Shown here piece after piece: positions 5,302 through 46,408 of a stretch of DNA of 46,638 nt. The position numbers were made by a program, and so were the translations under genes. How positions within the stretch are numbered: position 1 is the stretch's first letter; the number at the start of each line of letters is the position of its first letter. The notes under the pieces were generated by a model. That model made no database searches and was not told where the DNA came from. It was given only the letters and a program-made list of their open reading frames with translations. Source of the stretch: Bacteroidota bacterium (GTDB lineage Bacteria > Bacteroidota > Bacteroidia > Chitinophagales > UBA10324); NCBI GenBank assembly GCA_014190575.1, contig BJGQ01000026.1, positions 1-46,638 on the forward strand, given 5' to 3'.

Positions 5302-7833
5302 TTACCTGATTAAAGTCAAATCTCCGCTTTTAACAACTTCAGTTCCATCATATAGAATAGCCTTTAATTGATAAACAAGAACATCAGTATTTAGTGGCAT
5401 ACCGTTAAAAGTTCCATCCCAACCTCTTGTTTTATCCTTAGTTTCAAATACCATTTCACCGGTTCGATCAAATATTTTGAAACTCATTGATGATATATTA
5501 TTAAAATAATCATAAATGAAAAGGACATCATTTTTGCCATCATCATTAGGGCTGAAAGCAGTTGGTACAAAAACATCTGGTACTTGAGTAATGGTAATTA
5601 TTGGTGGGTCAATCACCGGAGGATCCGGAACTGGTGGTTCTTCAACGAAGTAAGCAACAATGTTATCAGAAGAAATCAAATTTATTTTCATTGTATCAGA
5701 AGTACTTGATGGGGTTGGTGTATTAACTAATAATCCCCAATGATCAAAATACCAACCTGGATTTGCAATAGCTGTAAATTTCATATTCACACCCCCAAAA
5801 TAAGTCCCTGTCCAGGGATATGAAGAAGGAATAATTGTACTTACCATCGCATTTCCGGAACCTGGTGGTGAAACAGATACAATTAAATCAAACGGCCCCG
5901 TCAAATCATAACAACCTATTAACGAACTATCAATAAATGCACAACGGTTTGAAATAAAATTATGAAGGTTTGTTACATTGTTTTGCCATCCAGCCATACT
6001 ACCGCCCCACCTAGCAATTTGATTTGGCATTTCCGGGGTAATAACGCCAATCATGGAATCTAATAATGAGATTGTTGCAGGACATGACAAACATGTATTC
6101 ATCAAATCAGCATATCGATTTATGTATGCGTCTTCAAAATCCGGATTTAAAAGCAATTTATTCAAAATATCCATGGTAGCCATATTCGGCCCTGAATTAC
6201 TAAAACTTCCTGCTAAATCACAAGGATCAGCATTCCATCCGGTTGTTGGCCACCCTGTAAAGTTTTGCCCTAAATCCCAAGTGTTATCTTCATCCCAAAG
6301 TACATAGCGCCATTTCTTTTTATTTCCAGCCGGGTTTTTTCCATGCCACCACATGGTATTCCAATTAATCCAATCTGAATTAACTGCATAAGTATTTAAA
6401 ATGGTATAATCAATTATATTTTTAATGTTAAGCAAAGAATCCACATAATCATAATTTGCCTGAATAGATAAATCATTGGCCATAATGTATGCGTACAAAG
6501 CATTCCAATCAGTATTGGTACCATATTGAATTACAAGTCCGCCCCAAAATCTTAAAAGATCAATATTGTCTTTGTCTTGATTGTAATAATAATCGGTATA
6601 TCCCGCATGACTCATCCGTTCTCTGATTTCATAAACTCCCCAATACTTACCATTCAGATAAACAATGCATGAATGATTTGTTCTTTCGTCCGTTTCGAGA
6701 TGTGCATTCTGAGAAAGTGTGTGAGTGAAGGCATCACGAATATGACAACTTGCAGATGGACCAAATGGGTAATTATCTGATGCCGCGGCCTTTAAAATTA
6801 CACGATCAAATTCATCGCGATCTGTAATTAGCGGATCAAAAATCGGAGAGGTAATAGCGTAGCTGTAACCATATCTGTCTTCACAAACAAAATCAACTCC
6901 TCGTTGATCGTAAGCCCATGAATCGTTCCCATGTGCATTAACTTCTCCATCTACTTCGTATAGAAAGCTTCCGGATGGTGTAAAATATTCATAAGTTGTA
7001 TAATGAACAGGCCCCCCGCCTCCGCCATTTACAACAAGAGTTTCTGTATCAAATGAACCTAATGAAACAACATTTAAAGTTGTATTAAGATTGATAAAAT
7101 AAGTATTTGTTTCAATAAATGAAGCTGGTGCGCCAATTGAACTGAATGCGCGAGCTTTAAATAATGTTGTTATAGTAATATTTATTGGGCCTGCATAAAG
7201 TGTGGACGAAACTGTTGGTTCAGAGCCATCAGTTGTATATCTGATCTCCGAACTTGGGGTTGAACATGTTATTGTAATATTTTGTGGTCCTGCATAATTT
7301 CCAGGAGCAAGGTTAAAAACAGGTGTTGCTACATAGTTTGTTTGTCCGCCTGTGTTTGCAGCATTTGGAGTTGGGGTAGTAAACACACTCCAAGTTGCTG
7401 CGCCATTCGTAGTCCTTCCTCTTGAGTGATCTGCCAGCGCGGGGTTCAGTATTAATTGGTCAATTATTGTTCCAGTTGGATTTGATAAAACAATTTCTTC
7501 CGGCTTGGTTTGAGTGAGTGAAAAGTTTGTATGAAAATTTGGTCCTGCTGATAAATCATTTTTTGATGCCCAAACAATTATTGTTCCATTGGCCGGAATA
7601 GTCCCCCCTGTAAATTGCCATTTTGTAGGATTGCTTGATTTATCACTTAGGTAATATCCGTTTAAACTAATGGCAGCACCGGTAGTATTAAATAATTCTA
7701 TCCAATCTTCATTGGCTCCGAAATTATCTGTAACAGTAGTAAAGTTTGAGCATGAATATTCATTGATAACAATTTGCGCAAAGGAATATTTTATTCCAAA
7801 TAGGAATACGATTAGGAAAGCGACTTTTTTCAT
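5302..7833 (-). CDS. T9SS type B cargo with lamin-tail and CotH-kinase domains
   Basis: Large secreted protein of 843 residues. Order: signal peptide 1-20 (ends SFAQ); lamin-tail domain about 22-150 (VINEYSCSNF...EDWIELFNTTG); chitobiase/HEX C-terminal-like domain about 175-245 (EIRYTTDGSEPT); CotH spore-coat kinase-like domain about 340-620 with IRDAFTHTL, CIVYLNGKYWGVYEIRERMS and the acidic LWDEDNTWDLG motif that matches the metal-binding DxDxxW region; a C-terminal gliding-motility/CHU_C type B sorting domain from FVPTAFSPNDDG to the end. Exported by Sec, then T9SS, to the surface or medium. CotH proteins in spores phosphorylate protein substrates; whether this one is active is not shown. 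It is 76 bp downstream of porQ. Confidence 0.9.
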   Translation of the reverse strand: MKKVAFLIVFLFGIKYSFAQIVINEYSCSNFTTVTDNFGANEDWIELFNTTGAAISLNGYYLSDKSSNPTKWQFTGGTIPANGTIIVWASKNDLSAGPNFHTNFSLTQTKPEEIVLSNPTGTIIDQLILNPALADHSRGRTTNGAATWSVFTTPTPNAANTGGQTNYVATPVFNLAPGNYAGPQNITITCSTPSSEIRYTTDGSEPTVSSTLYAGPINITITTLFKARAFSSIGAPASFIETNTYFINLNTTLNVVSLGSFDTETLVVNGGGGGPVHYTTYEYFTPSGSFLYEVDGEVNAHGNDSWAYDQRGVDFVCEDRYGYSYAITSPIFDPLITDRDEFDRVILKAAASDNYPFGPSASCHIRDAFTHTLSQNAHLETDERTNHSCIVYLNGKYWGVYEIRERMSHAGYTDYYYNQDKDNIDLLRFWGGLVIQYGTNTDWNALYAYIMANDLSIQANYDYVDSLLNIKNIIDYTILNTYAVNSDWINWNTMWWHGKNPAGNKKKWRYVLWDEDNTWDLGQNFTGWPTTGWNADPCDLAGSFSNSGPNMATMDILNKLLLNPDFEDAYINRYADLMNTCLSCPATISLLDSMIGVITPEMPNQIARWGGSMAGWQNNVTNLHNFISNRCAFIDSSLIGCYDLTGPFDLIVSVSPPGSGNAMVSTIIPSSYPWTGTYFGGVNMKFTAIANPGWYFDHWGLLVNTPTPSSTSDTMKINLISSDNIVAYFVEEPPVPDPPVIDPPIITITQVPDVFVPTAFSPNDDGKNDVLFIYDYFNNISSMSFKIFDRTGEMVFETKDKTRGWDGTFNGMPLNTDVLVYQLKAILYDGTEVVKSGDLTLIR

Positions 7834-14219: not shown

Positions 14220-16118
14220 ATGAAAAGAATTTTTACTTCAATAGTTATGCTACTGGCTTCAGCAACAGCATTCGCACAAAATCCTGCTCCATGTTCTGAT
14301 TTATTTTTTTCAGAATACATTGAAGGAACTTCTTTTAATAAAGTAATAGAAATATATAATCCAACAACTGCTTCAGTTGATCTGAGCGATTACAAATTGT
14401 TATTGTTTGCCAATGGCAGCCCTACCCCAACATCAACCTTTACCATGTTTGGAACATTAACTTCGGGCAATGTTTATATTGTAACAAATCCAAATGATAC
14501 ATCAACTTATATAAATGGATTGGCTGATACAACAGCCGGCACAATAAACTTTACCGGTAACGATGCATTTGCATTATTAAAAATTTCTTCAGCTGATACA
14601 ATTGACAGAATCGGTCAAATAGGAGTTGATCCGGGTGCTGCAATTGGTTGGATGGTTGGATCGGGAAATACAATTGACCATACATTAGTCAGGAAAATTT
14701 CAGTTAATAACGGACAATCAGATTGGTTGATTGGTGCAAATGAATGGGATGTGTTTCCATTAAATGATTTTACACATCTTGGAACTCATACAATGACTCC
14801 ATGTGCTGCCACTCCTCCCAATATATTTTTAGTTAGTGCCACACAAAATGTAAATGAAGGTGGTGGTACAGTTGCTATTCAGGTAGGCATTACTAACCCA
14901 GATGCAAACGCTACATCAGTAACATTAACCCTTAGTGATATTTCAGCAATCATTGGTCAGGATTATGATTTAGTTGGAAACCCGGTTACTGTAAATTTCC
15001 CCGGTGGTTCATCCGCAAATCAAACAGTTACTGTTTCAATCATTGATGATGTAAATATTGAAGCTGCAGAAACATTTAATGTGGCAATTAGTAATCCAAC
15101 TAACAACGCATCAATTTCAGGTGCAACAGAAGTTGTTACAATTTTTGACAATGATGCTTTGGCACCTGATGTATATATAGTTAACACAACACAAACCGTA
15201 AGCGAAACTGCAGGTTCCATTGCAATTCAGGTCGGAATAAATAATCCTAATGCCAATCCAACTTCAGTGACTTTAACGCTAAGTGATGGCACTGCTTCAA
15301 TTGGTCAGGATTATAACCTTGCTGGAAGTCAAGCCACAGTTACATTCCCTGGAGGCTCTTCTGCTATTCAAACAGTGACGGTAACAATTATCAGTGATGC
15401 AATTACAGAGTTAAATGAAACTTTTTATGCAACATTAAACTCTGCAACCAATAACGCAACAATCTCGGCTGGCAACGATACTGTAACTATCTCCAATGTT
15501 GACATCAATTCTTACATTAGTTTTTTTAAAGCCACTGATTCGGTTTCAGAAAGTATGACAACCTTTTCGGCTGACATTGAAATATTTTCAGGTAACCCTA
15601 CAACTTCACCAACCAGTGCTGATGTTACATTGGTAACGGCCCAATCAACTGCAACAACAGGCGTCGATTTTATTTTTAATGATACAACAGTTACATGGCC
15701 TGCAGGGAGTTCAAATTCACAGTATGCTATTTTTCATATTATTGACGATGCCCTAATTGAATCAATGGAGCACTTTGTTCTCACGCTTTCAAATTTCACA
15801 AACAGCTCAGCAGTTGGAAATACCGGAAGTACTCAAATAAATATTATTGATAATGATCCGAATGCTGTTAAAGATATTTTGAATGATAAAAATGTTTTGC
15901 TTATTCCGAATCCTGCAAATGACAAAGCGATTTTAATTACCAATGGTTCGTTCGAATATTTTGAAATCAGAGATGCTGCCGGACGAATTATACTGGCAAC
16001 CAATATTCATAATCAAAACACATACACTATTCAATTAACTGATTTTGCAGTTGGAGTTTATTTTGTTAGTCTGCATTCATCTACTCAAAATGAAGTTGTA
16101 AAATTGATGAAGCAATAA
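14220..16118 (+). CDS. T9SS type A cargo with lamin-tail domain and Calx-beta repeats
   Basis: Secreted surface protein of 632 residues. Signal peptide 1-19 (ends TAFA, then QNPAPC). Lamin-tail-like domain about 25-190 (LFFSEYIEGTSFNKVIEIYNPT). Three Calx-beta repeats follow (about 203-305, 318-420, 430-545), each with a NEGGG or SETAG type start, a DY segment, FPGGSSA and an IIDD or ISDA strand with acidic residues for Ca2+; the first two are closely similar. The C-terminal type A sorting domain runs from about 560 (LLIPNPANDKAILI) to VVKLMKQ. Likely a Ca-binding adhesin-like protein; its ligand is unknown. Confidence 0.87.
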   Translation: MKRIFTSIVMLLASATAFAQNPAPCSDLFFSEYIEGTSFNKVIEIYNPTTASVDLSDYKLLLFANGSPTPTSTFTMFGTLTSGNVYIVTNPNDTSTYINGLADTTAGTINFTGNDAFALLKISSADTIDRIGQIGVDPGAAIGWMVGSGNTIDHTLVRKISVNNGQSDWLIGANEWDVFPLNDFTHLGTHTMTPCAATPPNIFLVSATQNVNEGGGTVAIQVGITNPDANATSVTLTLSDISAIIGQDYDLVGNPVTVNFPGGSSANQTVTVSIIDDVNIEAAETFNVAISNPTNNASISGATEVVTIFDNDALAPDVYIVNTTQTVSETAGSIAIQVGINNPNANPTSVTLTLSDGTASIGQDYNLAGSQATVTFPGGSSAIQTVTVTIISDAITELNETFYATLNSATNNATISAGNDTVTISNVDINSYISFFKATDSVSESMTTFSADIEIFSGNPTTSPTSADVTLVTAQSTATTGVDFIFNDTTVTWPAGSSNSQYAIFHIIDDALIESMEHFVLTLSNFTNSSAVGNTGSTQINIIDNDPNAVKDILNDKNVLLIPNPANDKAILITNGSFEYFEIRDAAGRIILATNIHNQNTYTIQLTDFAVGVYFVSLHSSTQNEVVKLMKQ

Positions 16119-26712: not shown

Positions 26713-27459
26713 TTACTTCGGCATAAAGCCAACCATCATTTCCACTCTCACACGAACAGATTCTCCTTTGTTTTCCCCTGGATTCCAGACGGGCATTGTT
26801 TTTACAACACGCACAGCCTCGGCTCCGCAACCTGAACCAATATCATTCATCACTAAAATATTTGTGAGTGTTCCGTCTTTTTCAACCACTGCCATCAACT
26901 TCACAAAACCTTTTGTTTTATTTTTTTCCGCTTCCTTCGGATAGTGAATGTTCTTGGTAAAAAATGCAACCATCTCTCCTTTCCCTCCAGGAAATTCAGG
27001 CATCACATCGGCTTCTTCATAAATGGAAGTATCTTCTATTATTAGTTCATTTCCCAATGAATCCAATTTCGGAGGTGAAGTATCAATCACCTCGGGTTTT
27101 ATTTCTTTTACTTTATCCAGTATGTATCGCAGGTAGTAAGTCTTCAACCGGTAATCAATATATTTTGAACGCGGATTGAATGTGACATAAATTGTATCGT
27201 CATTTTTATCAAGCAACCGATAATTGCGATTGCTGCCAGCACCCTGCATATCTACTAAACCAAAGTACACATTCATTTGCCCCATGTGCATGGTGAATGA
27301 GGTGGAATCAAAATCGAAATTTGTTTCTTCAATGGAAGTTTGTCCCGATGTAAAATCTTTATACTGGCTACTGTGCGCTTCAAATTGTTGCGCATTTATT
27401 TTCTGTTGAAATAAAAACAGCAGCAGCAACACAATGAAAATTTTAAATTCTGATTTCAT
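26713..27459 (-). CDS. TonB C-terminal-domain protein (energy-transducer-like)
   Basis: 248 residues. N-terminal signal or anchor (KIFIVLLLLFLFQQ) to about residue 23. The middle 25-150 is unassigned. The C-terminal 155-248 is a TonB_C domain of the Bacteroidota kind: MPEFPGGKGEMVAFFTKNIHYP, KGFVKLMAVVEKDGTL, and AEAVRVVKTMPVWNPG with MMVGF at the end. Classical TonB has an inner-membrane anchor and Pro-rich spacer; here the spacer is not Pro-rich, so a soluble periplasmic role is also possible. A receptor partner is not in the window. Confidence 0.83.
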   Translation of the reverse strand: MKSEFKIFIVLLLLFLFQQKINAQQFEAHSSQYKDFTSGQTSIEETNFDFDSTSFTMHMGQMNVYFGLVDMQGAGSNRNYRLLDKNDDTIYVTFNPRSKYIDYRLKTYYLRYILDKVKEIKPEVIDTSPPKLDSLGNELIIEDTSIYEEADVMPEFPGGKGEMVAFFTKNIHYPKEAEKNKTKGFVKLMAVVEKDGTLTNILVMNDIGSGCGAEAVRVVKTMPVWNPGENKGESVRVRVEMMVGFMPK

Positions 27460-27489: not shown

Positions 27490-27537
27490 TGTAAAAATAA
27501 AAAAGCCACGACAGTTACAACGAACCATCGCGGCTTT
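27490..27537 (-). terminator. intrinsic terminator after the lysyl oxidase-like gene
   Basis: On the minus strand AGCCGCGA pairs with UCGUGGCU (with one G-U), arms 27504-27511 and 27529-27536, followed by a U-rich tail. It lies 16 bp beyond the stop of the 798-residue gene and within 35 bp upstream of the next start. Confidence 0.7.
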
Positions 27538-27552
27538 CAGTATTTTATTTTT

Positions 27553-29949
27553 TTATTGATTGATTAACACAACTCTCTTTGTCATCACTTCATTTTGAGT
27601 ATGCAGATTGATGAAGTAAACTCCTTCAGCATAATCTTTTAATGAAAGTGAAATTGTTTTTCCGAAAATATTATTTAATGAATTTATCATCACAATTCTT
27701 CCCAAAGCATCTGTTACTTCCAAAGTCGCATTCTGTGTATTCATCAGTTGAATGGATACATCAATTAAACCTGAAGTTGGATTTGGATAAACTGACAATG
27801 ATGAATGCGCCTGCACCAATGTTGGAACAGCATTATTTAACATACCTGCAATACATCCATCACCTTTCAAATCAATCACCTCTTGAAACAGTTGATTCAC
27901 TACGGAGTAAATGGAATCAATGCAAACTGTATCCTGAGTTGCGGAATAATAAATGCGACAAAGCGGCTGAAACGGTGTTGATTTTGAAATGCTGCTATCA
28001 ATGTAACTCAAGCCAACAATTAAATTATTTGCAATTGAAAACGATGGTGTCATTGGATACATAACAGGATCAACTAAACTTTGAACTGACTGAATAGTTA
28101 ATCCCTTCATTGAAAACTGATAAGCTAAAACTCTGCAATCTGAATTTTGAATTCCGATATCAATGTAGTGATTAGTTAAATCGGCTCCTATAATTTTAAA
28201 TGTTGCAGTGTCATTAATGTTAGTTAAGCCGGTTGGAAATGCACAGTAATTATGAATTCCACCACCTGACATTGGCCAAGCCTCGCCGTAATTGGCACAA
28301 CCGGTTAACAGTGCTGCATCATACACATCAATATCCAGATCGCCATTCAAATCATTGCAAGGCGCAGGAATCAAACTATCGCCAAGAATATAATTTACAT
28401 AGAGCATACCGTCGGTATTTGTTCTTAGAGTATCAGCATTTAAATCGCCAATCTTTGATGGTCCTCCGCAAATTCCATTGCAATCGGGTTGAGTGTTTCC
28501 GTATAAAACTCCAGCACAATCATAGTATGGACTGCAATTCTGAACCACACTGAAATTCTTTACACCCGGAGCAGTTTCAAAAATATGAATACACACCTGT
28601 GCCCAATTGTTCATGTAATCCATTTCGTAATGACCAAGTGCATCGGGTGATTGACCCCAGTTTACTTTAATTGCCATAGTATAAAATCCGGTATCAACAT
28701 CAGTGATGTCCAACCACTGACAATCCAAACCCGAACTATAAATATCGCCGCAACCAACTGAAATCCCCATGTTGCTGCAACCATATTGTGCTGTACCACC
28801 TCCGCTGCATTCTAAATCCAAAACACAAAAACCATTTTTAAATCCAATCGGAATCATTGTACCTGCTGTATCATACAAATCATACTCTGCATACCCTTGA
28901 TAGTGCCAGTGACCATGACAGGTTCCAAAAACAAACTGCCCCGGATTGTTTCCTGGATTGCCAATGAAGTAATCCTGATTCCCAAGATTTTTTATGTGAG
29001 TTGTAAAATTAATTACTGTGCGTAAGCCAAAGCCCGTTAAGCAACCTTCTGTAACCTGACAATTGGTTGCATTGATAGTTCCTATTGCTAATGAGTTTTC
29101 AAAATCGGTTTGCATAACAGCCAGATCGGGACCATTTGGACAATTCGGATCCCCAGGATAAATACATGAACCATCAGAAACTGTTGCATTGGGATTATAG
29201 TTACAGGCTAATGGATCCAGGCAACCTACGATAGGTCCCCCATAATTTATTATCCAGTTAATCGGAACTCCACAACCTCCCCCGCCTTCGCCGATTCTGA
29301 TATAGTAGGAAGTGCCTGCAACAAGTGCAGCTGAAACATGTGCCTGATATCCGCAAGCATTATCATCGTAATATGAAGTTCCGATATTAGTATTATTCCA
29401 AGTGAGATTATTGCAATGATCGTACACCCATATTTTGGTATCGCAGGTATTCAAATTACAGGTTGTAATATCATACATACCATTTGCAGTTGGAATAAAC
29501 TCATACCAAGTATCATTAACCGGTGCCACATAAGAAGTTGCTGCAATGGCTGATAATGCAGAAGCACAACTGGTTCCCGGAGGACAATTTAACCAGGTAA
29601 CTTCAGAGTAAGTATAATTTCCACCTGTAACAACAACACTACCATTCAAGAAAACGCTGTAGGAACCAATTCCGTAACCACAACAAATTCCATCGCCTGC
29701 TGCATCGTGTATGGTGAATTGAACGCATGTTCCATTAAGTACACATATTGTATCGTCATTGTAAGTTCCGGTGTATAAGGTAATACCACCCGCATTTTTT
29801 ATGTCCCATGAAATTTCCTGCGGATAATTATCCTCAGTTATTTGCACAATGATTTGAGAGTATCCGGTTGAACACTGTGCATTTGAATTTTGTGTTGAGG
29901 TTGTTAAAAGAAATAAACACATCAACAAAACAGAACTAACTATTTTCAT
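27553..29949 (-). CDS. T9SS type A-exported lysyl oxidase-like protein
   Basis: 798 residues. Signal peptide 1-24 (NSNAQ). Residues 26-235 hold two beta-sandwich modules, the second with pre-peptidase/PPC look. GCLDPLACNYNPNATVSDG (242-260) is a common Bacteroidota linker motif. Residues about 271-456 match the lysyl oxidase catalytic domain: copper motif CHGHWH (His345, His347, His349), FKNGFC with Lys371 and GDIYSSG with Tyr404, at the places of the Lys and Tyr that form the lysyl tyrosylquinone in animal LOX, then LDCQWLDITDV and MNNWAQVC. The paired cysteines are kept. After that come a dockerin-like Asp-rich segment (about 500-560) and a type A sorting domain (from VYPNPTSG). Predicted amine oxidase acting outside the cell; substrate unknown. 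Confidence 0.85.
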   Translation of the reverse strand: MKIVSSVLLMCLFLLTTSTQNSNAQCSTGYSQIIVQITEDNYPQEISWDIKNAGGITLYTGTYNDDTICVLNGTCVQFTIHDAAGDGICCGYGIGSYSVFLNGSVVVTGGNYTYSEVTWLNCPPGTSCASALSAIAATSYVAPVNDTWYEFIPTANGMYDITTCNLNTCDTKIWVYDHCNNLTWNNTNIGTSYYDDNACGYQAHVSAALVAGTSYYIRIGEGGGGCGVPINWIINYGGPIVGCLDPLACNYNPNATVSDGSCIYPGDPNCPNGPDLAVMQTDFENSLAIGTINATNCQVTEGCLTGFGLRTVINFTTHIKNLGNQDYFIGNPGNNPGQFVFGTCHGHWHYQGYAEYDLYDTAGTMIPIGFKNGFCVLDLECSGGGTAQYGCSNMGISVGCGDIYSSGLDCQWLDITDVDTGFYTMAIKVNWGQSPDALGHYEMDYMNNWAQVCIHIFETAPGVKNFSVVQNCSPYYDCAGVLYGNTQPDCNGICGGPSKIGDLNADTLRTNTDGMLYVNYILGDSLIPAPCNDLNGDLDIDVYDAALLTGCANYGEAWPMSGGGIHNYCAFPTGLTNINDTATFKIIGADLTNHYIDIGIQNSDCRVLAYQFSMKGLTIQSVQSLVDPVMYPMTPSFSIANNLIVGLSYIDSSISKSTPFQPLCRIYYSATQDTVCIDSIYSVVNQLFQEVIDLKGDGCIAGMLNNAVPTLVQAHSSLSVYPNPTSGLIDVSIQLMNTQNATLEVTDALGRIVMINSLNNIFGKTISLSLKDYAEGVYFINLHTQNEVMTKRVVLINQ

Positions 29950-30366: not shown

Positions 30367-31857
30367 TTATAAACTCAGCAACGCGTCTGCTAAATTTCTA
30401 TCGTTGGTTAAGCGAGGCACTTTATTTTGACCTCCTAGTTTGCCAACTGATTTCATGTAATTACGAAATGATTCTTTCGGTAATGAAGAAATATGCAAGG
30501 GTTCCAAAATATTTCCAGTAATTAAATCCTTATAATAAATATTTTTCTCCTGCATAAGTTTATCCAATTTGTTCCGAAAAAAAATTAAATCATTTGGTGA
30601 GTTTGAAAATTCAATTAGCCATTCGTGATACGGCAGGCCTTGTTTCGGATTTACTTGGGGAGCAACAGTAAATTCTGTTACGCTTACTTTTTCTTCATTA
30701 CACAATTCCATTAACGCGCCTTCTACTTCTTCGGCAATCACATGCTCGCCAAATGCACTTATAAAATGTTTTATTCTTCCGGTTACAACAATGCGATATG
30801 GATTCTTTGAAACAAACTTTATAGTATCACCAATCAAGTATCCCCATAAACCAGCATTGGAATTTATGACCAACGCATAATTCACATCGAGCTCAATATC
30901 TTTAATAGTTATGCGTGTTGGATTTTCATTGAACACTTCAGTAGTTGGAATGAACTCGAAGAAAATTCCGGAATCAACATTTAACAACAATCCTTTTTCT
31001 TTTTGTGAATCCTGGTAAGCGATGAATCCTTCGGATGCAGGATATGTTTCAATACTGTCAATCTCCTCACCTATTGTGTTGAACAATTGCGAGCGATAGG
31101 GTTCAAAGTTTACGCCACCATAAATCAGCAAATTGAAATTCGGAAAAATCTCTTTTATCGTTTTCTTTCCGGTCTTCTGTAATAACTTTTCAAAATACAT
31201 CTGCACCCACGGCGGAATACCGCTGATAAGTGTCATATTTTGATCATAAGTTTCTTCCACTATCGCATCTACTTTCTGTTCCCAGTCTTCAATACAATTT
31301 GTTGTAAAGGATGGAAGCTGATTGCCTTTTAAATATTTCGGCACATGATGATTCACAATGCCTGATAATCTTCCTGTGAGAATTCCATTTACATTTTCAA
31401 GCACAGGACTACCCGACAAAAAAATCATTTTACCATTTACAAATTCCGAATTATTGTTTTCAGAAATATAAAGCAGCAAAGCATTGCGCGCCGAGTTAAT
31501 GTGATTGGGAATGGAATCCTTTGTAAGCGGAATATATTTTACACCCGAAGTGGTGCCCGATGATTTTGCAAAATACACAGGCTTACCTGGCCATAATACA
31601 TCCTTCTCTCCCGTTTTAATTTTTTCAATGTACGGAATCAGTGCTTCATAATCGCGGATGGGCACACGCTTTACAAATTCTTCGTGAGAAATTATTTCGT
31701 TGAAACCATGCTCTTTTCCGAACACCGTTTTCTTTGCCTGATTAATTAATTTATGAAAAAGAAATTCCTGCGCTCTGGCGGCATCCATGCTCCACTTATT
31801 GATATTACGATGTACAACATTTGCATAAGGGCGAGCAAAGAATGATTTAATACTCAT
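30367..31857 (-). CDS. GH3 auxin-responsive promoter family protein (acyl-adenylate-forming)
   Basis: 496 residues from the ATG at 31857; the frame extends 16 codons further upstream, but those lack coding character and the family start MSIKSFFARPYANVV fits the ATG. GH3-family features: adenylation P-loop SSGTTSGVKYIP (99-110), LLIYGGVNFEPYR, ETYPASEGFIAYQD, GYLIGDTIKF and the TGRIKHFISAFGEHV region. Plant members link amino acids to hormones through acyl-AMP; bacterial members are mostly uncharacterised. Cytosolic. Possibly co-transcribed with the DUF2007 gene. Confidence 0.9.
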   Translation of the reverse strand: MSIKSFFARPYANVVHRNINKWSMDAARAQEFLFHKLINQAKKTVFGKEHGFNEIISHEEFVKRVPIRDYEALIPYIEKIKTGEKDVLWPGKPVYFAKSSGTTSGVKYIPLTKDSIPNHINSARNALLLYISENNNSEFVNGKMIFLSGSPVLENVNGILTGRLSGIVNHHVPKYLKGNQLPSFTTNCIEDWEQKVDAIVEETYDQNMTLISGIPPWVQMYFEKLLQKTGKKTIKEIFPNFNLLIYGGVNFEPYRSQLFNTIGEEIDSIETYPASEGFIAYQDSQKEKGLLLNVDSGIFFEFIPTTEVFNENPTRITIKDIELDVNYALVINSNAGLWGYLIGDTIKFVSKNPYRIVVTGRIKHFISAFGEHVIAEEVEGALMELCNEEKVSVTEFTVAPQVNPKQGLPYHEWLIEFSNSPNDLIFFRNKLDKLMQEKNIYYKDLITGNILEPLHISSLPKESFRNYMKSVGKLGGQNKVPRLTNDRNLADALLSL

Positions 31858-31951
31858 GCGGCAAATGTAAAATTGGATTTGAGTATTATTCCACTTGAAA
31901 TCCATACCTAAACACCTTTATTAAAGAAATAATTATTCCGTGGTACAGAAA

Positions 31952-33038: not shown

Positions 33039-35672
33039 ATGAAAATCATTGACATCAAAGTAATGAATGGTCCCAACTACTGGAGCATTCGCCGGCACAA
33101 ACTCATAGTCATGCGCTTAGACCTCGAAGGGCTTGAAGAAAAACCAACCAATAAAATCCCGGGGTTTATTGATCGCTTAAAAAAATTAATGCCCTCGTTG
33201 CAAGAGCATCGTTGCAGCGAAAATTTTGCGGGCGGATTTTTTCATCGCGTGGAAGAAGGCACCTGGATGGGACATGTAGTTGAACACATTGCACTCGAAC
33301 TGCAAACACTCGCAGGCATGGATGTAGGTTTCGGTCGCACCCGCGAAACCAGCACTAAGGGAGTTTACAATGTAGTGTTCGCCTACATGGAAAAAAAAGC
33401 AGGCATTTACACAGCCAATGCAGCAGTAAGTATTGCCACAGCATTAATAGCCGGAACCGAATACGATTTAGCAAACGATATACAAACACTTCGAGAAATT
33501 CGTGAAGACGAACGACTCGGACCATCCACCGGTTCCATTGTTGATGAAGCCATCGCGCGCGGTATTCCATACATCAGATTAAATCGTCATTCACTAGTGC
33601 AGTTGGGTTATGCCATGAATCAAAAAAGAATTCAGGCAACAGTTGCAAGCACCACAAGTAGCATTGCAGTAGAGATTGCATGCGATAAAGAAGAAACAAA
33701 AAATTTATTAGAAGCAGCGGAGATTCCTGTTCCACGCGGAATCATTTGTTACGACGAAGAGGATTTAGAAATCGCTGCGAAAAAATATGGTTATCCGTTG
33801 GTCACAAAACCAGTGAACGGAAATCACGGCAAGGGCGCATCCACCGATTTAAAAAATTGGGATGAATTGTTGGTTGGTTTTCACGCCGCAAAAAAATATG
33901 GTCGCGGCATCATTGTCGAGCGCTTCATCACCGGGCTTGACCATCGGGTGCTCGTAATCAATTACAAATTTGTAGCAGCAGCCATCCGGAAACCTGCCGC
34001 TGTTATGGGCGATGGAAAATCTACGATTCAGCAACTGATTGATAAAGTAAATACAGATCCACGCAGAGGTTACGGTCACGAAAAAGTTTTAACATCCATT
34101 AAAGTAGATGATCACACACTGAAAATTCTCACCGATAAAAATCTCACACTCGATTCTGTTCTTGAAAAAGATAAAGAGTTGTGGTTAAAGCCCACGGCAA
34201 ATCTCAGCACCGGTGGAACATCAACTGATATAACTGATCTCGTTCATCCCGATAATATTTTTATGTGCGAACGAATAGCGCGCATCATCGGTCTCGATAT
34301 TTGCGGCATCGATATCATGGCATCAAGTTTAAGTGTTCCCGTTACCGAAAACGGTGGTGCGGTGCTCGAAGTAAATGCAGCTCCCGGTTTCCGAATGCAC
34401 ATTTCGCCTGCCGAAGGTTTACCACGCAATGTAGCCGAACCTGTAATTGATATGTTATTTCCGCCCGGCACATCAGCGCGCATTCCAATCATTGCGGTTA
34501 CAGGCACCAATGGAAAAACAACAACCACACGATTAACGGCGCACATTGTAAAATCAATGGGCTACAAAGTTGGTTTCACGACTACCGATGGAATTTATAT
34601 TCAGAATCAAATGCTCATGCGCGGCGATTGCACCGGCCCTGTATCATCAGAGTTTGTGTTGAAAGATCCTTCCGTTGATTTCGCCGTGTTGGAATGTGCG
34701 CGTGGCGGAATACTTCGCGCCGGTTTAGGATTTCACAATTGCGATATTGCCATCGTAACAAATGTTGCCGCCGATCACCTCGGCTTGCAGGGCATCGATA
34801 CATTGGAACAATTAGCAAGAGTGAAAGGTGTGGTACCCGAAACTGTTTTACCAAGTGGTTATGCAATACTGAATGCCGATGATGATCTGGTTTACAAAAT
34901 GCGCGAGAGTTTAAATTGCAAAGTTGCGTTCTTCAGCATAGACGAAAATAATCCGCGCATCAAAGCGCATTGTGCAAGCGGCGGCCTCGCAGCCATTGCC
35001 GAAAATGGTTATGTAACTATTTGTAAAGGCACATGGAAAATCCGAGTAGATAAAATCAGCAACATCCCTCTCACATTCGGTGGTCGAGCCGTGTTCAATG
35101 TGTTAAATGTTTTGCCATCAGTACTCGCCGGTTTCATTCGCGGTTTCAAAATCGAAGACATCAAGCAGGCATTGGAAACCTTCATTCCATCACCTGGACA
35201 AACTCCCGGTCGCATGAACATGTTTCAGTTCCGCAATTTTTCTGTCATGGTTGATTATGCGCACAACACTGCTGGCTTTGAAGCTATCGGAAAATTTTTA
35301 GAGAAAGTTGATGCACATCCAAAAGTAGGAATCATTGCAGGAGTTGGTGATAGAAGAGATGAAGACATTATCGCACTCGGCACCACAGCAGCTAAAATGT
35401 TCGACCAGATAATTATCCGACAAGATAAAAATCTACGCGGTCGTTCTGAAGATGAAATTATTGATTTAATGAAACAGGGTATTGCACAAGTAGATGTAAG
35501 CAAAGTGGCCGAAGTATTTCGCAAAGAAAGCGAAGCCATTGACTACGCAATCAGCAATGCAGTAAAAGGTTCGTTCGTTATCATTTGCAGCGATGTAGTG
35601 CCCGATGCATTGGATCAAATCATGCGCTTAAAAGAAGCAGATGATTTAGTGGAAACACAACCCGTTGTGTAA
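33039..35672 (+). CDS. cphA: cyanophycin synthetase
   Basis: 877 residues, normal for CphA1. Builds the multi-L-arginyl-poly-L-aspartate storage polymer by adding Asp then Arg with ATP. Three parts: N-terminal CphA domain 1-160 (GMDVGFGRTRET); ATP-grasp about 200-475 with GNHGKGAST at 261-269, IVERFITGLDHRVLV, the STGGTSTDITD loop and metal residues in LEVNAAPG (Glu444, Asn446); Mur-ligase-like domain 480-877 with P-loop GTNGKTTTT at 489-497, VDYAHNTAGF and GVGDRRDED. No cyanophycinase is in the window, so breakdown genes must lie elsewhere. The ATG is supported by the family start KIIDIKVMNGPNYWS. Confidence 0.95.
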   Translation: MKIIDIKVMNGPNYWSIRRHKLIVMRLDLEGLEEKPTNKIPGFIDRLKKLMPSLQEHRCSENFAGGFFHRVEEGTWMGHVVEHIALELQTLAGMDVGFGRTRETSTKGVYNVVFAYMEKKAGIYTANAAVSIATALIAGTEYDLANDIQTLREIREDERLGPSTGSIVDEAIARGIPYIRLNRHSLVQLGYAMNQKRIQATVASTTSSIAVEIACDKEETKNLLEAAEIPVPRGIICYDEEDLEIAAKKYGYPLVTKPVNGNHGKGASTDLKNWDELLVGFHAAKKYGRGIIVERFITGLDHRVLVINYKFVAAAIRKPAAVMGDGKSTIQQLIDKVNTDPRRGYGHEKVLTSIKVDDHTLKILTDKNLTLDSVLEKDKELWLKPTANLSTGGTSTDITDLVHPDNIFMCERIARIIGLDICGIDIMASSLSVPVTENGGAVLEVNAAPGFRMHISPAEGLPRNVAEPVIDMLFPPGTSARIPIIAVTGTNGKTTTTRLTAHIVKSMGYKVGFTTTDGIYIQNQMLMRGDCTGPVSSEFVLKDPSVDFAVLECARGGILRAGLGFHNCDIAIVTNVAADHLGLQGIDTLEQLARVKGVVPETVLPSGYAILNADDDLVYKMRESLNCKVAFFSIDENNPRIKAHCASGGLAAIAENGYVTICKGTWKIRVDKISNIPLTFGGRAVFNVLNVLPSVLAGFIRGFKIEDIKQALETFIPSPGQTPGRMNMFQFRNFSVMVDYAHNTAGFEAIGKFLEKVDAHPKVGIIAGVGDRRDEDIIALGTTAAKMFDQIIIRQDKNLRGRSEDEIIDLMKQGIAQVDVSKVAEVFRKESEAIDYAISNAVKGSFVIICSDVVPDALDQIMRLKEADDLVETQPVV

Positions 35673-43187: not shown

Positions 43188-44984
43188 CTACCTTGTTATT
43201 GTTATTTGTTTAAACACCGAATTGTTTTTCTCATCGGTGATTTTTATAAAATAGTTTCCGGTTGAAATATTTTCAATGGAGCAATTCAATTGATTTGCTT
43301 TTTCATTTTTACAGAATAATGTTACACCAAGCATATTAAACATTTCAATTTTGCTAAATGTTTTTTCTGATTTCACAGTTACTAAATCACTTGCCGGATT
43401 CGGATAAATCTGAAATTCAAAATCTTCTATCTGTAATTCCGAAATTCCATCTACCCACTGGTAAAAACTCGTATCAGAAGTGGAAGAGCAACCATAGTGA
43501 TTGGTGTATGTAACAGAATAAACACCATCTTCTGTAATAATATAAGTCGGACTATTTGCTCCGGCTATAGCTGTGTCATTTTCATACCACTGAATTGTTT
43601 CATTAAAAGCAGGTGATGCAGTTAAAGCATTATCAATTGCAGTTATTGTTGGAGTTGGAGCCGCATCACTTCCATCATTGAATGAAACAATGCACATTCC
43701 GGGATGCGCAGTGGTGGTTTTACAAGAGAATACCGGATTAAAATCATAATTCTGTCCGGTGAAATAACAATTTCCATTTCCATCGTTTGTTAAATCATTT
43801 ACCCGATCAGTTCCTGTCAGTGATCCACTTCCTGAAGCCCAAATAACATTTCCGTTGAAATCCATTTTCACTAACAGGTTACCACCGTTGCCTGCAGCGC
43901 TTAATGAGTCACCATTGTTAAAATATGTAACAGCGCCGTGATTTCCACCAAGATAAATTCCGTTGTTTGCAATCATCAGCGCATTTGTTTCATGAAAGTC
44001 GGATTTAAAAATACGAACACCCGATAAAGGATTCAGTGATGCATCCATTTTCAGAAATGCTGCGGCATATGGTTCAGGAATAATGCTGTCGGTTCCGAAA
44101 TAATTTGTTACGATAGTTGATTGAGAACACACATAAACATTATTGGCATCTGCAACAACGGGCCACAAGGCAGTGGAAACATAATTGCCATATGCTTTGA
44201 ACGCAAGCACATTCATTGCAGTGTCCATTCTGATGACTGCTAAATTTCCGCCTGTGCCATCAGCAGAAGCAGTAACGGGAAGTGTTACACCATCAACAGT
44301 CATCGTTGAAGTAATGCTATAGGTTGTAATTATATCTCCATTCGGTGCAGCAGTAATTCCTTTCTGTTCACCCCATCCACCTGCGAGCGGGAGCGTTGAG
44401 ATTATATTTCCATCTATACAATTGACTTTATGAATTCCTGAACAACTTCCAATAAAAATAAATCCACGGGAATACTGTATGAACTTTCCACAACCTGCAG
44501 GAATTTGCGAAACCCATTTAAAATTACCTGCTGAATCAATTTTTATTAAAACATCATTTGCCAGATTCAAAACTGTATCATCAAACTGAATGCTGAATCC
44601 ATATGAATGTTCGAAAATGTAAATGTTTGATGAATCATCAATTGTCATATCAAAAATTGCATCAACCTGAACGGTGCTACCAAATGGAATTGACCATATG
44701 CGTTGACCTTGAGAATTAAACTTAACAATATAATCATCCAGAAGTCCACCATCGATTGGTTGAATAGTATCACCCTGAATCATTACAGGTGCATTGTATG
44801 GGGCCACCGTATACAAGTTGCCACCACCATCCCGAACAATGGCTGCTCCGCCACCTGCGTTGTTTCCAGTGCCGGAAACTGATTCTCCAAACGATTCCCA
44901 TTCGTATCGCTGTGCGAAAAGAAAATTTGTTTGTTACAATAATGCGATGATGAAAATGTGTTTTAAGAAATTGATTGATTTCAT
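43188..44984 (-). pseudogene. T9SS type A cargo with SBBP-like propeller, in-frame stop in the signal peptide
   Basis: From the ATG at 44984 the frame reads MKSINFLKHIFIIALL, then a TAA (44934-44936), then QTNFLFAQRYEWESFG and on without break for a further 582 codons. The two sides together form a normal signal peptide (cleavage after LFA), so the stop cuts one gene. The body about 40-400 is a beta-propeller of SBBP type (DDYIVKFNSQGQRIWS, NVIWASGSGSLTGTDRVNDLTNDGNGN), then an Ig-like segment (IQWYENDTAIAGANSPTYII) and a C-terminal type A sorting domain (QIYPNPASDLVTV). A start at 44816 (TTG) would lack the export signal. Real nonsense mutation or sequence error. Confidence 0.8.
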
Positions 44985-45205: not shown

Positions 45206-46408
45206 ATGAAAAAGCAAGTACTTACTTTTTTATTTTTCATTTTTTCCATTCCTGTTTTCGCGCAGGCACCAATTGTTTATTTTGATTTTGTAACACACAA
45301 CGAAGAAACCTTTCAATGGAATGTTCCGAATTTTTATTCAGCCAACCGAACTAAACTTATTTCACTCAGCAATTATTTTAAGTCGAAAGGAATTACCTGG
45401 AACATGCAATCAGATTGGGTGTATCTGAACAATGTGATTATGCAGGACACTGCATTTTTTTCGTCAACAGGAAATAAAAATATTCTTCGGTGGATGCACG
45501 AAGACAAAGGAATAGAAATGGATCCGCATGCGCATGAGTCGCAATACATTTATCCGGATGTGGTGCACCTGATGGATTCAATTGGATTACCAGAGAGCAA
45601 AGTAATTGGCGGAACAATTTACAACGACAGCAATGGAGTAAACATCTGGACCAATTTAGTGAATGGTCAGTATGGAATTATTTATCCGAATCAATTCTGG
45701 AAGCCGAATTACATGATGGGTGGCGGTACTCCGAATCATGTTGATGATTTAAAATACTTTGGTATCTGGAATCCGCAAAGTCCCTCTGCTTATTTAACAC
45801 ATGATACAGCTACTCACATTCGTCATCTCGGTGTCGGATGCACAATTAAAATATGGGATACTTCCACAGTTGCCGGTGTAGTAGCACAGATAAAAGATGT
45901 AGTTGATAAAGTGCAGAGCGGGCAATATCCATCTAACGGATTTTATCTTCAAACCATTTTTTTTGAGCAGGCAAGTTTAAATGATCTTGCATTTTATAAT
46001 CGTGTAATTGAAATTGCCGATAGCGCAAATGCATTGGTTGCTTCTGGTGTTGCACAATGGAAAACATTTACGCAAGTTACTACCGAATGGGAGACAGCTT
46101 ATAACGCGCAAATGTTTCAGTGGGAGTGTGGCGAAATTGTTTCAGGTGTCGAAAGTGTTACAGCAGATAATTTTATTGTTTTTCCGAATCCAGTGAACGA
46201 ACAATTAACCATTGCAGATAATCAATTGAATGGAGAAATTGAATTTGAAATTTTTGATTTGATGGGAAGAAAAATTCAAACAATAAAATTGCTGAGCGAA
46301 GACGAACAAACAACAGTTGATGTAAAACAACTTCCATCCGGAATTTATTTCTATCGCCTTACTTCCGTGAAAAATAAAAGTGTAACAGGGAAATTTGTTA
46401 AAGAATAA
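45206..46408 (+). CDS. T9SS type A cargo with deacetylase-like fold
   Basis: 400 residues. Signal peptide 1-19 (ends PVFA-Q). The body about 20-310 has a polysaccharide-deacetylase-like layout: IVYFDFVTHNEET strand, YFKSKGITWNMQSDW, MDPHAHES with a candidate metal His pair, and IRHLGVG. Similarity to the NodB family is weak, so enzyme activity is uncertain. The type A sorting domain runs from about 325 (FIVFPNPVNEQLTIADNQ) to the end (GKFVKE). It starts right after the AT-rich gap above the pseudogene and has its own promoter region (a weak TATGTTTA -7-like word about 30 bp upstream). Confidence 0.7.
   Translation: MKKQVLTFLFFIFSIPVFAQAPIVYFDFVTHNEETFQWNVPNFYSANRTKLISLSNYFKSKGITWNMQSDWVYLNNVIMQDTAFFSSTGNKNILRWMHEDKGIEMDPHAHESQYIYPDVVHLMDSIGLPESKVIGGTIYNDSNGVNIWTNLVNGQYGIIYPNQFWKPNYMMGGGTPNHVDDLKYFGIWNPQSPSAYLTHDTATHIRHLGVGCTIKIWDTSTVAGVVAQIKDVVDKVQSGQYPSNGFYLQTIFFEQASLNDLAFYNRVIEIADSANALVASGVAQWKTFTQVTTEWETAYNAQMFQWECGEIVSGVESVTADNFIVFPNPVNEQLTIADNQLNGEIEFEIFDLMGRKIQTIKLLSEDEQTTVDVKQLPSGIYFYRLTSVKNKSVTGKFVKE

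Follow-up and report, generated by a model that had tools for sequence, protein, structure and literature searches.

Animals use lysyl oxidase (LOX)-type enzymes to cross-link collagen, and the locus described here raises the question of what such an enzyme does in a Bacteroidota bacterium, which encodes, and is predicted to secrete, one that has kept its metal and cofactor residues. The window, meaning the whole stretch of DNA that was analysed, is the complete contig BJGQ01000026.1 (C26 of the host genome; 46638 bases) within a 3.19 Mb genome of 98.3% completeness. A single unbroken open reading frame (ORF) at 27553-29949 on the reverse strand encodes a multidomain LOX protein of 798 amino acids (aa). 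Based on its sequence and predicted structure, we consider it likely that this protein is an active copper/lysyl tyrosylquinone (LTQ) amine oxidase at the cell surface, exported by the type IX secretion system (T9SS). We hold the purpose of that activity more tentatively.

The lysyl oxidase domain and its distribution

The original prediction placed a LOX domain at residues about 271-456 and named the lack of a significant match to the LOX profile as grounds for refuting it. Aligned with that profile, the protein matched PF01186 (Lysyl_oxidase) over residues 305-456 (E 2.3e-31, 109.5 bits vs a cut-off of 20.4), and the same search matched 0/14 named control genomes. Against solved structures, phmmer returned human LOXL2 (5ze3) as its sole convincing match (E 1.7e-22; the other two rows had E 0.42 and 0.72). 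We built an alignment, A1, from the 798-aa protein and 28 full-length relatives chosen from the loci found (n=29, 34-89% identical), and with its profile the LOXL2 match grew to span residues 265-451 (E 3.5e-40). Modelled by AlphaFold2 (mean pLDDT 81.9), the protein again led to LOXL2, which topped the Foldseek rows (E 1.6e-13; rmsd 7.1 across a long alignment) and aligned by VIA-align (5ze3_A) at Z 21.6 and 2.3 Å over 192 residues, with 30% identity and a span of residues 249-474. By all sequence and fold tests applied, the predicted protein holds a real LOX domain, and the resemblance, as judged from sequence, lies far beyond chance.

PF01186 matches recurred among related genomes. The distribution figures include the host genome in every case and come from draws that overlap and differ in make-up, and they are not readable as rates. 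Two PF01186 loci were present in 6/6 genus genomes. The family had a match in 11/16 genomes (7 strong), the order in 98/396 (66 strong, E<=1e-20), the class in 97/395 (58 strong, E<=1e-20), and a phylum draw had any match in 4/395. IMG/VR contributed one contig with a LOX match, plasmid records one (Gemmatirosa, 33%), and phage records 0. In one scan of genome contigs, which gave six loci, the nearest named relatives came from four metagenome-assembled genomes (MAGs) with 79-89% protein identity (three titled Chitinophagaceae, one Chitinophaga pinensis), followed by two Saprospiraceae MAGs at 40-41%.

These results bear on whether the motifs arose by chance or the assembly was contaminated with eukaryotic DNA. 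Nothing was found in favor of either. We rejected both and give them a negligible probability, on the grounds of the E-values, the LOXL2 fold match and the T9SS tail, a bacterial feature that shares the reading frame with LOX; the paired loci in all six genus genomes, each of which keeps the neighbouring TonB_C cluster, also speak against them.

The layout of the gene is as follows (all features on the reverse strand).

27553..29949 (-): whole LOX gene, 798 aa; uninterrupted ORF, with a strong PF01186 match in frames of 793-822 codons in 6/6 genus genomes
29878..29949 (-): predicted Sec signal peptide (residues 1-24, cut before Gln25-Cys26); judged by eye, fits the Q-rule
29587..29874 (-): Cys-rich beta domain at the N-terminus (residues 26-121); modelled as beta strands
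29242..29586 (-): PPC-fold domain, residues about 122-236; fold comparison with collagenase collagen-binding/PPC domains
29158..29223 (-): GCLDPLACNYNPNATVSDGSCI module (GCxDPxACNYNP), residues 243-264; C243, C249 and C262 invariant in 29/29 sequences
28582..29139 (-): predicted LOX catalytic domain, residues 271-456 (Pfam match 305-456); profile and fold match to 5ze3
28903..28917 (-): copper motif H345-G-H347-W-H349; codons checked, aligned to LOXL2
28837..28839 (-): Lys371, predicted LTQ lysine (= LOXL2 K653); alignment, codon checked
28738..28740 (-): Tyr404, predicted LTQ tyrosine (= LOXL2 Y689); alignment, codon checked
28294..28449 (-): dockerin-like pair of Ca-loop motifs, residues 501-552; weak sequence matches, modelled as two helices
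27826..28221 (-): cohesin-like beta sandwich, residues 577-708; VIA-align to cohesins 6kgf_A and 3kcp_A
27568..27792 (-): T9SS type A C-terminal sorting domain (CTD), residues 720-794; PF18962, TIGR04183 and fold
27501..27538 (-): terminator-like hairpin, 16 pairs and a T tail, directly 3' of the LOX gene; 1 found vs 1.9 expected in shuffles

The CQW motif occupies residues 410-412 (codons checked), and a DC-rich linker sits between the LOX domain and the dockerin-like stretch. The position of the hairpin suggests that the LOX gene is transcribed as a single-gene unit; the hairpin count is not significant by number.

Cofactor residues and activity

The copper motif and the two LTQ residues named in the original prediction were found where LOXL2 has them. 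The phmmer alignment paired CHGHWH with CHRHYH of LOXL2, Lys371 with the Lys in GHKASFC, and Tyr404 with the Tyr in WDMYRHDIDCQW. Twelve residues (C344, H345, H347, H349, K371, C375, Y404, C410, Q411, W412, D414 and T416) were identical in 29/29 A1 sequences. We then compared the LOX loci more widely, keeping in mind that these are the best-scoring of each search and not a random sample, with weaker members under-sampled. The profile of this LOX domain matched 73/75 loci tested, representing 68 distinct domains (L021 and L054 had no match). The eight positions H, H, H, K, C, Y, C and Q were kept in 56/56 distinct type-A domains (>250 bits), this one included. The next two domains below type A, the phage and Gemmatirosa LOX, kept H, H, H, K and Y, and the remaining ten scored 12-17 bits, most of them only partly alignable.

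The paired cysteines of the original prediction also found counterparts. Ten were invariant in 29/29 A1 sequences (297, 303, 344, 375, 381, 391, 400, 410, 453 and 472) and correspond to the ten that pair into the five domain disulfides of LOXL2 (PMC9180022, Table 1), the first eight matched by alignment and C453 and C472 by order only. Compared with five genus relatives, the LOX part had a dN/dS of 0.017-0.049 and the whole gene 0.049-0.099, rough values as dS is near saturation; the LOX part was the lowest of four stretches in 4/5 pairs. Coding-sequence comparison thus indicates that the LOX gene is under purifying selection.

These patterns can be set against the view that the protein is a binding or structural one, in which the LOX fold is kept without LTQ formation and the flanking modules do the work. 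We consider this improbable. It draws on the absence here of two animal histidines and on one locus of the family's second group (L018), which lost H-x-H-x-H; the copper and LTQ residues kept throughout the type-A domains and the low dN/dS of the LOX part count against it. The LOX domain is probably catalytically active, judging from its conserved residues.

The original prediction also called the residues animal-like, which was right in part. The copper histidines and the LTQ Lys and Tyr do align, but almost every LOX group, bacterial ones included, has the three histidines, Lys and Tyr (PMC4448552), and the counterparts of LOXL2 H623 and H652 are absent. Position 342, where animals have the histidine preceding the copper motif (LOX H289/LOXL2 H623), is Gly here and Asp, Gly or Val in 22, 6 and 1 of the A1 sequences; position 370, adjoining the LTQ Lys (LOXL2 H652), is Phe here, and across A1 F in 24, T in 2, Y in 2 and R in 1. 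In LOXL2, changing H623 or H652 to Gln left <50% of the LTQ (PMC9694262, section 2.8), and loss of the first animal His hardly mattered in work cited by PMC4448552. With two animal histidines replaced, the site is therefore not identical to the animal one, though probably active. The original prediction further proposed the Lys371-Tyr404 distance as a check, which cannot decide the question because Lys653 and Tyr689 are themselves 16.6 Å apart in the LOXL2 precursor crystal (PMC9694262).

Besides these two substitutions, several results weigh against an active, exported LOX. Model confidence drops near the active site (mean pLDDT 68 at residues 341-350 and 72 at 371-380), and with a pTM of 0.54 the arrangement of domains is not fixed by the model. 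Five of the 29 A1 sequences have no match to PF18962, the sorting-tail family considered below. A distant prokaryotic LOX speaks on both sides. In favor, HTU-LOX, an archaeal enzyme of 308 aa from Haloterrigena, was active once truncated and refolded, worked best with Cu and was sensitive to BAPN (PMC6452851). Against, the same paper reports that the full-length form was inactive, that specificity was relaxed, that the native role was cryptic, and that amine oxidase activity was not detectable in H. turkmenica cells. Neither catalysis by a long form nor a cross-linking role can therefore be taken for granted.

Two other kinds of LOX protein turned up in the searches. The LOXL2 score serves as a rough gauge of how far apart these lie: the protein studied here scored 82 bits, its relative L026 104, the phage LOX 64 and Gemmatirosa 32. 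The host genome encodes a second, divergent LOX-type protein (L106:1051-3867, reverse strand, on contig C4 of G000; frame 938 aa) with HGHMH, a K in GAKLGFC, a Y in WADVYYQYLDG, a PF01186 score of 26.9 bits and its own T9SS tail at C4:132056-132295; it had no LOXL2 match at E<=1. Such second-type loci in the genomes of the family (L008, L014-L018 and L020-L023) kept H-x-H-x-H and K-x-x-F-C in 9/10 cases, L018 being the one without the histidines. A phage-type contig, IMGVR_UViG_3300022562_001652 (113.8 kb), carries a LOX of 209 aa (L086:4818-5447, forward strand) that looks by eye like a lipoprotein and has kept H-x-H-x-H, Lys and Tyr (PF01186 E 4.6e-28, LOXL2 E 1.4e-16). Its neighbours on this one contig include SbcC-like, UDG, RusA and terminase genes. 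A literature search for phage LOX found none by title.

Predicted export, flanking modules and proposed use

Both ends of the protein agree with the export route of the original prediction. A signal peptide was read by eye, without SignalP, as M1-A24 followed by QC, and the Gln at +1 of the predicted peptide fits the Bacteroidetes Q-rule (PMC5837995). At the other end, Por_Secre_tail (PF18962) matched residues 720-794 (E 2.4e-13), TIGR04183 agreed (47.4 bits vs a cut-off of 23, E 1.4e-12), and the tail fold aligned with the mirolase CTD 8qb1_A at Z 11.2, a score that ties with Ig-like rows such as CD109. Across A1, PF18962 was present in 24/29 sequences and CHU_C in 5 (the sets may overlap). 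The host genome also has SprA (1840.6 bits over profile positions 574-2318, with another piece on a separate contig) and PorU (1326 bits), both above the cut-off, and at least 150 sorting tails (150 of 308 candidates scored). Among 14 named control genomes, 0/14 exceeded the cut-off for SprA and 0/14 for PorU, and matches below the cut-off were seen in 2/14 with the PorU model and 1/14 with the sorting-tail model. The type A tail and the SprA and PorU genes support the predicted export of the LOX protein via T9SS.

We propose the following sequence of events. Sec would take the LOX protein into the periplasm. H345, H347 and H349 would bind Cu(II), which with O2 would drive the self-processing of Tyr404 and Lys371 into LTQ. 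The T9SS translocon would move the protein across the outer membrane, and PorU would cut off the tail, leaving the protein on the surface or releasing it. Primary amines would then be oxidised outside the cell to aldehydes, with NH3 and H2O2 as further products. The likeliest substrates would be the lysines of secreted proteins, oxidised at their side chains while the PPC, dockerin-like and cohesin-like modules keep these proteins close, and the likeliest use would be to link the cell's own surface or matrix proteins covalently to one another.

The N-terminal part, folded alone, had a pLDDT of 89.4. Residues about 122-236 aligned by VIA-align with 2o8o (Z 11.6, 2.3 Å, 99 residues) and 5iku (Z 11.6, 2.8 Å, 104 residues); the seven best rows were all collagenase collagen-binding/PPC domains (Z 11.6-10.4; a single ColG domain accounts for five), with the next, unrelated row at 9.4. 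Identity with these domains was 13-19%, and Pfam gave no PPC family for the region at E<=0.5 (GBD_T9SS_assoc was found at E 0.011, below its cut-off), which makes collagen binding a lead only. Residues 26-121 matched no Pfam family at E<=0.5, and the fold comparison covered mainly residues 93-217 of the model of the N-terminal part, largely the neighbouring PPC-fold domain.

The dockerin-like label of the original prediction is fair. Residues 501-552 read GDLNADTLRTNTDG...NDLNGDLDIDVYD, a pair of Ca-loop motifs, and form two helices in the AlphaFold2 model; hmmsearch against endoglucanase dockerins gave weak matches (E 0.08-0.1), and Pfam Dockerin_1 was found at E<=0.01 in 5/29 A1 sequences, the 798-aa protein not among them. 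Residues 577-708 matched cohesin folds at Z 11.4-10.6, including 6kgf_A (Z 11.4, 2.6 Å, 119 residues) and 3kcp_A (Z 11.1, 3.0 Å, 121 residues). The order of PPC/collagen-binding-like, LOX, dockerin-like, cohesin-like and T9SS-tail modules was largely kept across the 28 aligned relatives. Elsewhere it varied: the open frames of L024, L025 and L032 have their copper motif as early as residue 109-145, so that the N-terminal domains are missing, and L031, L033, L036, L040 and L048 have different C-terminal ends. From the frames compared, the multidomain layout is not universal among the LOX found.

Gene neighbourhood and genome content were considered as clues to the substrate. We compared 20 regions with the window, 15 of them from outside the genus (the LOX of region L068 was not clustered with the other LOX, presumably an effect of the coverage rule). 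Within the genus, a TonB_C cluster gene follows the LOX gene on the same strand in 6/6 genomes, with the terminator-like hairpin between the two here, and a GH3 cluster adjoins LOX in 4/6. The TonB_C-domain protein of the window lies at 26713-27459 (-).

In the 15 outside regions, no window neighbour recurred beside LOX, and gene neighbourhood was rejected as a substrate clue. Pfam Collagen (PF01391) was absent from the host genome and present in 1/16 family genomes (controls 3/14), so the host offers no sign of the animal substrate and collagen was likewise rejected; both results count against the reading that we favor. The sole Collagen match in the family (L107, on contig C4 of G005; E 8.7e-7) belongs to a genus member that also has LOX.

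Two uses of the predicted enzyme share the same catalysis and differ in purpose. We favor cross-linking of the cell's own proteins, at its surface or in its matrix, a choice that falls somewhat short of an even chance, because the protein carries binding-type modules; scavenging or H2O2 production comes next. In the latter case, an extracellular amine oxidase of relaxed specificity would serve nutrient gain, as ammonia and carbon drawn from free amines, taurine or polyamines, or release H2O2 against neighbours, which we regard as possible, if on the doubtful side. HTU-LOX lends it some weight: besides lysine-containing polypeptides, it oxidises taurine, cadaverine, histamine and even glycine, along with amikacin, capreomycin and polymyxin (PMC6452851). 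The missing collagen match in the host genome and the lack of a partner gene conserved outside the genus point the same way. However, a multidomain surface protein with protein-binding-type modules exceeds the needs of a scavenging enzyme, and no amine-use pathway gene recurs in the 15 outside regions.

Cross-linking of own proteins can be extended to a broader proposal, which we consider unlikely on present evidence: in some Bacteroidia, a T9SS-exported surface LOX would act as a covalent matrix builder, with PPC and cohesin/dockerin-like modules gathering partners to be cross-linked via oxidised lysines. If true, bacteria would have an equivalent of the process that matures the extracellular matrix of animals. 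The multidomain LOX, which recurs and is apparently exported to the surface, also offers a defined protein for testing bacterial extracellular lysine oxidation and cross-linking; the full layout was checked in the 29 aligned sequences, and the 66/396 order and 58/395 class counts refer to strong PF01186 matches. As a general expectation, this form could be a source of bacterial LOX enzymes for bench work.

Other genes of the window and comparison with known systems

The window holds further genes of note. A CotH protein-kinase domain (E 3.3e-32) occurs at 5302-7833 (-) with a Lamin Tail Domain, a chitobiase-C-like domain and a T9SS CHU_C tail, so its product is possibly a secreted CotH kinase. 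A cyanophycin synthetase is encoded at 33039-35672 (+; 1255.6 bits vs a cut-off of 850), and a GH3-family protein like the lyso-ornithine lipid synthetase OlsH at 30367-31905 (-; 406 bits, below the cut-off of 620). T9SS tails are also borne by a Calx-beta and Lamin Tail Domain protein at 14220-16118 (+) and by the proteins at 43188-44816 and 45206-46408.

Several known systems resemble parts of this protein. Human LOXL2 and animal LOX share its catalytic fold, H-x-H-x-H, LTQ Lys and Tyr, and pairing cysteines; they differ at H623 and H652, both replaced here, and LOXL2 has SRCR domains whereas this protein has a T9SS tail and PPC, dockerin-like and cohesin-like modules. Gingipains are T9SS type A CTD cargo. 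Such cargo, with mirolase as our example, has in common with the LOX protein a signal peptide with Gln at +1, a C-terminal sorting domain and a host with SprA and PorU, but the cargo enzyme here is a predicted amine oxidase. The collagen-binding/PPC domains of collagenases ColG and ColH come nearest in fold to residues about 122-236 (Z 11.6-10.4) and are unlike in sequence, given the low identity and the lack of a Pfam PPC match. Cellulosomal dockerin and cohesin resemble it in Ca-loop motifs and, for the cohesin part, in predicted fold; in contrast to them, both modules sit in one chain here and neither has a Pfam match in this protein.

A further comparison is with bacterial and archaeal LOX (PMC4448552, PMC6452851), both of which leave LOX function outside animals open in the sections used here. 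These enzymes are alike in the three His, Lys and Tyr, and the fourth animal His is absent in both; they are unlike in being mostly LOX-only (HTU-LOX has 308 aa), against 798 aa and several domains here. The original prediction held that such an enzyme would be little described in Bacteroidota, which needs qualifying: LOX in Bacteroidetes was reported in 2015 (Grau-Bove et al., PMC4448552), while the multidomain, surface-exported layout is less described. The prokaryotic LOX of that study were LOX-only proteins, "most (except three)", and it is possible that a T9SS form is among the three. Our literature search for T9SS-exported or Bacteroidota LOX, made partly by title and with most subscription journals not covered, found no paper, and in a wider search by title PMC4448552 and PMC6452851 were the only prokaryotic LOX papers found. 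This is the same enzyme as known LOX, and its predicted delivery by T9SS and its set of modules differ from those described.

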